Part shown: piece by piece, positions 29,098-64,000 of the stretch
Layout of the letters: each line of letters starts with the position of its first letter
Position numbering within the stretch: the stretch's first letter is position 1
Assembly: GCA_021787565.1 (NCBI GenBank)
Contig: JAJYLT010000005.1
Coordinates: 55,020-119,019 of the forward strand
Reading direction: 5' to 3'
Source: Acidobacteriota bacterium
GTDB taxonomy: Bacteria; Acidobacteriota; UBA4820; DSQY01
Length of the DNA stretch: 64,000 nucleotides
Position numbers and translations under genes: made by a program
Notes under the pieces: model-generated
The model's database searches: none
Told to the model about the DNA's origin: nothing
What the model saw: only the letters and a program-made list of their open reading frames with translations

Positions 29098-29148
29098 GCG
29101 CCCTCGCATCCCAATCGTGCTTTTCCAATTCGCAATTCGCCGTGCCTT

Positions 29149-29739
29149 CATGGCTGTCCAAGACAATTTCAACTCGCGCTTGTGCGGTTTGCCTTCCGGA
29201 GCGAAGCGGAGGAAGGCGCGTCCCGGCGCGTCGCGCGGGGGCGCTCCCCAAGGAGGGGCTCGGCCGCCCCTCCTCGGCGCTCCCCTGGCGTACGCCAGGG
29301 AAACTGCTCTTCCCTGCCCTTGCGGGGGTGGCCCTCTGAGCGGGGAAACCTCCCCGTTTCCCCGCACCTCTTCGACTGGCGCCGTCCCTTCGCTTTTCGC
29401 TGCAAGCGAAAAGCGGCGTCCCGGCGCCGATGGGCCTCATGCAAGGAAGATGAGGCGGCCGCACCGCAAGCGTACTCCCCGTACGCTGAGGATGCGGACG
29501 CCGAAGGCTGACGAAGCAGGAGGTCCGTCGCCGCCGGCGCACCCGTGGAGGGTGGGGGGACGGTTCGTACCAGGAAAGGCTGGGGCTGGCGCCCGAAGGG
29601 CGGCTGAGGGCCTGCGGACGGAGCGCGGCCACGCTCGCATGGACGCGCCCGGACCAGGCCCCCAGCGCCGCGCCAAAGGCGCGGCCAAGGCCCGGCCGTG
29701 GTTCGGAGCCGACAAGGCGGTCTATTTTGGACAGGCATA
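29149..29739. mobile_element. non-autonomous transposable element copy A (TIR, 9-bp TSD)
   Basis: Left ATGGCTGTCCAAGAC / right rc ATGCCTGTCCAAAAT; 9-bp duplication CCGTGCCTT at 29140-29148 and 29740-29748; internal hairpins; second copy at 41669. Confidence 0.85.
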
Positions 29740-29840
29740 CCGTGCCTTGGTGTCTTGGTGGTGGATCGTTTTTCCCATCCCAGATCCGCCATTCTTCTTC
29801 CCCCTTTCTCCTCCCCGCGCTATCATTCTCTCCATGACGA

Positions 29841-34271: not shown

Positions 34272-34325
34272 ACCCATCACCCATCGGACAGAAGCCTCTC
34301 ATTCAAGAAGAATCATGGCCCGCCG

Positions 34326-34453
34326 GTGGGGCGGGCGCCCTCGCCCGCCACTCTCCCCCTCCGCCGAGCCGTGGGGCGGGCGCCCCCGCCCGCCACTCTC
34401 CCGCTCCGCCAAACCGTGGGGCGGGCGCCCTCGCCCGCCACTCTCCCGCTCCG
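34326..34453. repeat. three tandem 45-bp units with GGGCGGGCGCCCTCGCCCGCC palindrome
   Basis: GTGGGGCGGGCGCC(C/T)... begins at 34326, 34371 and 34416. Confidence 0.92.
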
Positions 34454-34521
34454 ACCGGCGCGGCAAGCGGGCAATATCCAATGAAGAGGCCTCCTTACCG
34501 AGGCGAAGCTTTACTCTCCCC

Positions 34522-35232
34522 ATGGAACGGCTAACGACCTATCGTCGCCGCCTACCGCATATTCATGTGAGTGGGGCCTGCTACTCCCTCACCTTCCGCT
34601 TATCGAGCCGGCAAGCCCCTCCGATGTCCCCCGAAGAGTGCCAAGCCCTGGTCTCTCATATCCACAAGATGGGCCCGGGCAAGGTTGAAGCCTTCGTCGT
34701 TATGCCTGACCACGTGCATCTTCTCTATTCCACCACAAGGGATGAGCATCTGATCAAGACCTTACAATCACTCAAGGGTGCCTCTTCCCATACCCTTGCC
34801 AGACGCTTCGGCCGTCAGTCCCCCATTTGGCAGGATGAAACCTATGATCACATCATCCGCAATGAGCGGGAATTCAACGAAGCTTGGCGCTACATAGAGG
34901 GTAATCCGGTTCGAAAGGGCCTCGTTGCCTGCATCACCGATTATCCTTGGTCCAGCGCGTGGAAGGGGGAAGGGTTCGCGGCCGGGGGCGGCCGCGCCAC
35001 AGCCGAGGGCCGCAGCGCCACGGGCGAGGGCGGCCGCGCCACAGAAGACAATCATGATCAACCCGTGGGGCGGGCGCCCTCGCCCGCCGCTCCTCAAGGT
35101 CCATCAGACTCGCAACCTCTCGATGGTTTCGCGGCCGGGGGCGGCCGCGCCACAGCCGAGGGCGGCCGCGCCACAGCCGAGGGCAGCAGCTCCACAGCCG
35201 GGGGCCGCAGCGCCACGGGCGAAGGGAAATAG
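34522..35232 (+). CDS. REP-associated tyrosine transposase (RAYT, Y1_Tnp)
   Basis: HUH motif MPDHVHLL, catalytic region FNEAWRYIEGNPVRKGL, WxDETYDHIIRNE; repeat-encoded C-terminal tail. Confidence 0.9.
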   Translation: MERLTTYRRRLPHIHVSGACYSLTFRLSSRQAPPMSPEECQALVSHIHKMGPGKVEAFVVMPDHVHLLYSTTRDEHLIKTLQSLKGASSHTLARRFGRQSPIWQDETYDHIIRNEREFNEAWRYIEGNPVRKGLVACITDYPWSSAWKGEGFAAGGGRATAEGRSATGEGGRATEDNHDQPVGRAPSPAAPQGPSDSQPLDGFAAGGGRATAEGGRATAEGSSSTAGGRSATGEGK

Positions 35233-41548: not shown

Positions 41549-41668
41549 GCTCCTCGCCGCCTGTCGCGCGGTGGCGTGCGTCTATACGGTCTCGCAAAGC
41601 GAGGGGCTCAGACGGGATGTGCAGGCCATTCTGCGCAGCCACCACCGCGGTTGTTCATCATCTTTCAT

Positions 41669-42424
41669 CATGGCTGTCCAAAACAATTTCAGCTCGCACT
41701 CGTGCGGTTTGCCTTTCGGAGCGAAGCGGAGGAAGGCGCGGCCCGGCGCGTCGCACGGGTGCGCTCCCCCGTTTCCCCGCACCTCTTCGACTGGTGCCGT
41801 CCCTTCGCTTTTCGCTGCAAGCGAAAAGCGGCGTCCCGGCGCCGATGGGCCCAGGGGTCCGGCCCCCCGGGGATCTCTGGCGCGACGGTCGCGCCCTGGG
41901 ATGGGCCGCGAGGCGCGGCGAGGAAGGAAGGGTAGACCCCTTTGGACGAGCCGGAACGAAGCGGACCGCCCAGGGCGCGGCGTCCCTCCGGGTTGCCGCC
42001 GGGCCGGGCATCTTCTTTGTCGGCCCTCGTCGGCGTGCCGCCCTGCACGCCTTCCTCGGGCCTTCGCGAATCTGCTCCGGCCCGGCGGGCAACGCGCCGA
42101 GAGCCCCCGGGGGGCCTGACCCCCGGCGAGGAAGCCGAGGCGGCCGCACCGCAAGCGTACTCCCCGTACGCTGAGGATGCGGACGCCGAAGGCTGACGAA
42201 GCAGGAGGTCCGTCGCCGCCGGCGCACCCGTGGAGGGTGGGAGGAGGGTCCACCCCAGACGAGGCCTGGCCTGGCGCCCGAAGGGCGGCTGAGGGACTGC
42301 GGACGGAGCGCGGCCACGCTCGCGTGGACGCGCCCGGACCAGGCCCCCAGCGCCGCTCCAACGGCGCGGCCAAGGCCCGGTCGGGGTTCGGAGCCGGCAA
42401 GGCGGTCCGTTTTGGACGGGCATG
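41669..42424. mobile_element. non-autonomous transposable element copy B (TIR, 9-bp TSD, nested insert)
   Basis: ATGGCTGTCCAAAAC left / rc ATGCCCGTCCAAAAC right; direct repeat ATCTTTCAT at 41660-41668 and 42425-42433; shares core with copy A. Confidence 0.85.
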
Positions 42425-42439
42425 ATCTTTCATCCACCA

Positions 42440-50463: not shown

Positions 50464-50804
50464 ACTGTGGCCCACTGATTTCCAAAATAATGCTGCAACT
50501 GGATGGCGGCCTGCGCAAAACACGTAATGTGAGCGGGCTCCTGTAAAGATTCAGGATGAGGTCCCCCATTAGGCTTGATTACCGTGGCATCAGTCGGCAA
50601 CGGCGGGGGCTTGAAGCGAGGCGGGCCTTCCGAGAGGCTCTCCAACTTACTTAGGCTCCGATCCAAGCACGGATAGGGCACGTCCTTGCAGTCCTGCCAC
50701 GGCCGAGGGGCATTCGCGTCCGATAGGGCGGCCTGCTTGCTGGTTCCGCTCAGCTCAAGATGGACCTCTTCGCCCAGGATCGAGCCCAACCCGCCCGCGG
50801 TCAT
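50448..50804 (-). CDS. hypothetical ORF, possibly a remnant
   Basis: 118-aa ORF overlapping both neighbours; no recognisable domain. Confidence 0.3.
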   Translation of the reverse strand: MTAGGLGSILGEEVHLELSGTSKQAALSDANAPRPWQDCKDVPYPCLDRSLSKLESLSEGPPRFKPPPLPTDATVIKPNGGPHPESLQEPAHITCFAQAAIQLQHYFGNQWATVCSCP

Positions 50805-63704: not shown

Positions 63705-64000
63705 GGCCCGGCATGCCTCCCTTCCGCCCGGCCAGTTTTGCACCCGCCCGTGGGGGAGTCAAGAAGAACCGGAGATCGCGAGTCGCGAATTGGAAGGCGG
63801 TGCATCAAGGCCTTCGAAGAAAGCCTGCAGCGGCCGGCTCCCGCCGGCCGAACCACCCGAAGGACTTCCACCGGCCGATAGGGGTAGGAAGAACCGGCTG
63901 AGCCGGTTCCCCCTCCCTCCGAACCGGACTGGCGGATCTCCCGCATCCGGCTCTCCAGTCGGTGGAGTCCGCATCGGGACTGGCCGATGGCCGCTCGGGC

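Follow-up and report, generated by a model that had tools for sequence, protein, structure and literature searches.

A probable IS4Sa-type miniature element in an Acidobacteriota genome and the structured RNA that it has in common with elements bounded by unrelated ends

What is the 591-bp non-coding block that lies between a predicted type IV pilus inner-membrane protein gene and a sensor kinase gene (ORF list, translations read) in this Acidobacteriota genome, and what does it carry? The window, by which we mean the whole stretch of 64,000 nucleotides that was analysed, had earlier been interpreted from its letters, and that sequence-only reading described the block (here copy A) as a non-autonomous element with imperfect inverted ends and a perfect 9-bp target duplication, accompanied by a second copy (copy B) with the same ends and a different duplication. 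Direct reading bears this out: copy A starts with CATGGCTGTCCAAGACAATTTC and terminates in GTCTATTTTGGACAGGCATA, CCGTGCCTT stands on both sides of it, and copy B lies between two occurrences of ATCTTTCAT (Table 1). The first C belongs to the element proper, since copy A reads CATGGCTGTCC...GGACAGGCATA and copy B CATGGCTGTCC...GGACGGGCATG. Matches to the left end occur in the window at copies A and B only, with 0 expected by chance, and it is true of both copies, as had been claimed, that no transposase ORF is encoded.

Table 1. Positions in the window of copies A and B, their parts and the transposase remnant
Feature	Position	Strand	Basis
Copy A, 591-bp non-autonomous element	29149..29739	+	direct reading and family alignment
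Copy A target duplication CCGTGCCTT, left	29140..29148		sequence; family statistics
Copy A target duplication CCGTGCCTT, right	29740..29748		sequence
Copy A left terminal repeat CATGGCTGTCCAAGACAATTTC	29149..29170	+	end matches
Copy A right terminal repeat, inverted, reverse complement TATGCCTGTCCAAAATAGACC	29719..29739	+	end matches
Structured RNA core of copy A	29410..29548	+	model R1, 145 bits
Copy B, 756-bp element, same family as copy A	41669..42424	+	direct reading and alignment
Copy B target duplication ATCTTTCAT, left	41660..41668		sequence
Copy B target duplication ATCTTTCAT, right	42425..42433		sequence
Copy B RNA core, 5' arm	41825..41851	+	model match and reading
276-bp insert splitting the RNA stem of copy B, ends GGGGTCCGGCCCCCCGGGG / CCCCGGGGGGCCTGACCCC-like	41852..42127		reading
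Copy B RNA core, remainder	42128..42233	+	R1, 88 bits over 42095-42233
IS4/DUF4372-type transposase remnant	50577..50804	-	39% identity over 74 aa, E 5.8e-7
TIR-like CACTGATTTCCAAAATAATG beside the transposase remnant	50473..50492	+	end match

Searching the element's own genome (G000; 77 contigs, 3.47 Mb, 98% complete), a check that the sequence-only reading had proposed, turned up 72 matching pieces from about 38 places (copies or fragments), with imperfect family ends CATGGCTGTCCAAAA/CATGCCTGTCCAAAAT. Among the 25 copies with definable ends, the 9-bp duplication is perfect in 8 and agrees at 7 or more of its 9 positions in 17, and when these copies are aligned by their ends the flanks have an identity of 0.738 at exactly 9 bp vs 0.23-0.39 at 7, 8, 10 and 11 bp. 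Duplications of at least 8/9, a count that allows a little slack at the right end, are found at 14 copies, compared with a mean of 0.23 and a maximum of 3 for shuffled flank pairs. These statistics are strong evidence for insertion. The copies are mosaic, a left end (positions 1-81 or 1-101) being joined, with or without a middle segment, to a right part (268-590), and they range from 128 to 835 bp with a commonest length of about 392 bp; the shortest (C62:10228, 128 bp) lacks the RNA described below. In being short, multicopy and free of coding sequence, and in having TIRs and a target duplication, the family has the properties of MITEs, with the longest copies, copy B among them, being long for that class. 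We also note that several copies sit in ATCCATCAT-type spacer repeats of this genome (e.g., C2:120205 and C49:59221), which may therefore be preferred targets. The extra middle module of copy A (29225-29400, element positions about 82-267) has parts that also stand alone elsewhere in the genome (e.g., C29:82308 and C36:51070), and to its region belongs the best of the sub-threshold Rfam matches, a weak one to BjrC80 (24.2 bits against a cut-off of 80) that lies outside the RNA core.

Empty sites in relatives had been suggested as a further check, and here the outcome was divided. Copy A is absent at the orthologous positions: the spacer in G001 has other sequence there and holds merely a fragment of a different copy, and those in G002, G004 and G005, at about 77-181 bp, are too short for the element. 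However, no exact empty site was found in the orthologous spacers of these four relatives, in which the spacer is not colinear.

The enzyme that would move such an element is indicated by an intact 1387-bp insertion sequence (L106) in a genome of the same taxonomic family (G007), which has ends CACACCTGTCCAAGA and CACTGCTGTCCAAGATAATC and a perfect 9-bp duplication, GGTCCAAGT. Its single ORF encodes a protein of 403 aa (P0001) with PF01609 (2.2e-26) and PF14294, in which D127 and D193 are present, as is the YREK motif, with YKERWQIELFFKAIK at 289. The IS4Sa subgroup of the IS4 family is defined by ends CA------T, duplications of 8-10 bp and a length of 1150-1750 bp (PMC2266710), and L106 belongs there by its ends (CACACCTGT/CACTGCTGT), 9-bp duplication, length, DDE residues and YREK motif. 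Copies A and B share the end consensus (CATGGCTGT) and the duplication length of 9 bp, with the right end of copy A starting TA, not CA; they differ from the related full-length insertion sequence in having no transposase and an interior that is mostly unrelated to it, a transposase query giving no match in either copy. Only the elements of G010 retain a C-terminal piece of the transposase between similar ends, which is what internal deletion should leave. In the element's own genome four PF01609 loci were considered as partners and rejected, the ends of none of them matching, and the window has a transposase remnant with a TIR-like sequence beside it (Table 1). Neither G000 nor G001 yielded an intact transposase that matches, so the mobilising enzyme in this genome is inferred from L106, a single copy in a relative of another genus whose ends are 16/20 and 12/20 identical. 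Thus the earlier proposal of a non-autonomous DDE-type element with a full-length partner is supported, and a matching type of partner, IS4-family and IS4Sa-like, exists in a relative. As a transposon copy A is a further member of the already known IS4-type elements, and cut-and-paste movement by an IS4Sa-type DDE transposase, which would act in trans on the ends of copy A and make the 9-bp target duplication, is well supported.

Sequences in relatives that bear other ends match the right part of copy A, within which lies a structured core that the sequence-only reading had not remarked on. An alignment of 37 cores (A1), whose structure was fixed before pairs were counted, folds into one long rod with internal loops, ~140 nt in length. 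Paired cells make up 92.6% of the total vs 82.3% with shuffled partners, a control that leaves relatedness in place, and 31-41% with slid partners; under the same comparison both sides have changed in 25 of 39 pairs (13.1 when shuffled) and in 136 cells (36.7 when shuffled). Compensatory examples are CCGCA/TGCGG, which becomes CCACA/TGTGG, and AGGT/ACCT, which becomes AGGC/GCCT and then AAAC/GTTT. The structure also has a strand: G-U cells number 112 vs 11 A-C cells, with the proviso that folds chosen by RNAalifold allow G-U and so lean towards such pairs, the consensus fold is -45.0 kcal/mol on the + strand vs -24.7 on the other, and the + strand folds more stably in 37 of 37 single sequences. 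This polarity argues against arm copying or a DNA cruciform as the source of the pattern, since either should show none. The internal loops of the core are AAGGA / GACNAAG and CCGGA / GAGGA.

A covariance model of the core (R1) finds matches in 42 of 396 genomes and 28 of 210 genera of the phylum (24 of 338 when counted among good-quality genomes), with a score of 73.6 bits on contig C13 of G273, and the carrier genomes often hold several copies. Beyond the phylum, a scan of GTDB genomes with an apical-hairpin pattern gave at least 111 stretches, and among the matches listed are, by their record labels, Deltaproteobacteria, Nitrospirae, Synergistaceae, Clostridia, Spirochaetes, Armatimonadetes, Myxococcota and others. 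Most of the pattern stretches tested were confirmed by R1 at E below 1e-3. Where a match covers the hairpin alone it scores about 19-24 bits, whereas the best from other phyla reach 40-57 bits, so the rest of the structure contributes to them. Whole-genome searches of single members of other phyla, picked from the pattern positives, gave 46 copies in a Clostridium MAG (1.8 Mb), 31 in a member of Synergistaceae, 29 and 17 in two Deltaproteobacteria (1.7 Mb for the former) and 7 in a member of Spirochaetia. When 20 copies from the Clostridium genome and 20 from one deltaproteobacterial genome are folded de novo, both sets show the same architecture as A1, with G-U vs A-C counts of 61 vs 3 and 47 vs 11 and the + strand the better in both. 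R1 misses divergent members, as the pattern-positive genomes G396 and G401 have no match to it at E 0.001. In a subfamily of the Clostridium MAG (G399; L359, L360, L361, L365 and L367) the CCGGA/GAGGA loop is replaced by the largely paired AAATTTAGAGG / TTGATTAAATTT. One deltaproteobacterial copy had no match in plasmid and phage collections; three viral contigs of IMG/VR (L344, L345 and L346) match the apical hairpin pattern.

The ends around this core vary. Three acidobacterial genomes (G273, G257 and G115) have an element of ~205 bp that is filled by the RNA and bounded by the near-perfect ends TTAACCCGGATTATTCATGAAG; its copies are up to 99% identical. G273 also has an IS1380-family (PF13701) element (L347) with ends CTAACCATATTATTCACGAAA / TTTCGTGAATAATGCAGATTA, compared with TAACCCGGATTATTCATGAAG in the MITE; with 5-7 mismatches in 21 the two are alike, not identical, and the short element agrees with an IS1380-type MITE. 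The carrier in G003 has ends TAGGGCTGTT...AACAGCCCTA, near-identical copies in a deltaproteobacterial MAG are bounded by CTAGCCTGCATTTCTCACCAGATC, and in G398, a deltaproteobacterial genome, the one core stands between at least five distinct sets of arms. In the other direction, G010 has short IS4Sa-type elements that lack the RNA, as C62:10228 also does, so the RNA is not required for the movement of every such element. RNA and ends thus assort independently. The repeated pairing of this RNA with ends from unrelated transposons makes it a portable module rather than the by-product of a single palindrome.

Taken as a whole, copy A is likely a MITE-like IS4Sa-type element that is moved in trans and carries this portable + strand RNA. 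It is quite unlikely, in our judgment, that it is an ordinary MITE in which the inverted repeats once extended inwards and have decayed into the internal imperfect palindrome, and the paired changes arose by arm-to-arm copying (cruciform, template switching) instead of by selection on an RNA. Many members do come close to being long imperfect palindromes whose arms run into the TIRs, as such an origin would have it, but arm copying is strand-neutral and so at odds with the G-U excess of all three alignments and the uniformly better + strand folds; furthermore, unpaired loop letters are kept between genera and the same core stands between unrelated arms.

What the RNA does is a matter of more tentative proposals. 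With copy A as a transposed carrier, its passenger would be a ~140-nt rod-shaped RNA read from the + strand, the element presumably being transcribed from its own or read-through promoters. The RNA could then act in trans, its two internal loops binding some host protein or RNP that is widely conserved, and this predicted binding would help carriers to persist. The conserved internal loops, and a strand-specific RNA common to several phyla, point in this direction, and we offer it as a guess that is somewhat more doubtful than not. A direct role in transposition, as an RNA cofactor, appears unlikely. Copies show no bias of orientation with respect to neighbouring genes (7/6/6/5 among 24 copies with genes called on both sides, from approximate gene calls), which speaks against a cis-regulatory role, and such a role was set aside on this ground. 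The same lack of bias weighs on the idea that the RNA works in cis, terminating transcription or stabilising mRNA, and thereby softens insertion into operons; the rod is very stable and the copies examined are all intergenic, as this would predict, but a simple hairpin needs no internal loops conserved across phyla, and we regard the idea as rather improbable.

The RNA resembles HEARO/omega-RNAs in being mobile, multicopy, structured and conserved, and might on that account be a guide or cofactor, in the style of omega-RNA or bridge RNA, for a nuclease or transposase whose gene lies elsewhere. The sequence-only reading had named HEARO and Rfam as a check, and no Rfam family, HEARO included, matches the element or the RNA at its gathering score, with chance-level matches only below it; HEARO/omega-RNA and every other Rfam RNA are thereby rejected as its identity. 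A partner gene was seen neither within the elements examined nor next to the RNA, the core is internal and away from the element boundary, and the RNA is common to elements of different transposase families, so that a guide function strikes us as very improbable. That the structure is recognised as DNA, in single-stranded or cruciform form, by IHF/HU or by a transposase such as a REP-type Y1 enzyme, of which hairpin DNA is a known substrate and one candidate ORF (Y1_Tnp, PF01797) lies in the window at 34315-35229, is the least probable reading, given that strand-polar G-U wobble favours RNA, that TIRs with 9-bp or other duplications are typical of DDE enzymes, and that the REP-typical GTAG foot is missing from the copies of this genome.

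The portable RNA also sets copy A apart from known repeats. Bacterial MITEs (QMITE2, Chunjie, MITEAba12 and others) are likewise short, gene-less and multicopy, with TIRs, duplications and a predicted stable transcript fold, but here a conserved internal RNA is common to unrelated ends across phyla. HEARO/omega-RNA elements and IStrons are also mobile DNA elements that carry a structured RNA; the present element differs in having no covariance-model relationship to them (Rfam) and no ORF seen in it. ERIC, Correia, BOX and REP/BIME repeats are similarly intergenic, structured and multicopy, yet each is restricted to a narrow bacterial group, whereas the present core spans phyla and swaps ends. 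Multicopy repeats of Geobacter were considered as a prior description, and the classes described in the main text of that source do not fit. A search of open-licence papers for MITEs with a common RNA core returned nothing relevant, and as far as could be tested, within Rfam and the open-licence literature compared, the RNA is undescribed; we know of no described MITE or RNA in which one RNA is common to unrelated miniature elements across phyla. It may be, with a probability that we place slightly below even, an ancient undescribed class of structured RNA that is carried about by miniature transposons, exchanges one unrelated transposase system for another, is now dispersed over many bacterial phyla and acts in trans on a universally conserved cellular partner. 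Were this so, bacteria would have their own counterpart of RNA-carrying SINEs, one that relies on DNA transposases to move. MITEs are usually regarded as dead leftovers of insertion sequences; if the RNA is kept by selection within them, in elements that different transposases move and from Acidobacteriota to Clostridia, many bacterial intergenic repeats would carry functional RNA. With a covariance model now to hand, the question posed is which protein or RNP is the partner of the RNA, and whether element or host benefits.

Three smaller features of the window deserve mention. The RNA structure of copy B is split by the 276-bp insert (Table 1), and copy B may thus be inactive. The insert has GC-rich inverted ends, GGGGTCCGGCCCCCCGGGG / CCCCGGGGGGCCTGACCCC; inserts like it occur at C49:16551, L161 and L162, and other copies, those of G004 included, have a similar insert at roughly this position in the RNA stem. 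It may represent a mobile or structured module nested in the element. The Y1_Tnp ORF mentioned above is of the IS200-like, REP-associated type (E 8.9e-9) and has short stretches of repeated peptide at its two ends. Finally, a Group II intron match (RF00029, 52 bits) lies on the minus strand at the window edge (63878-63955).
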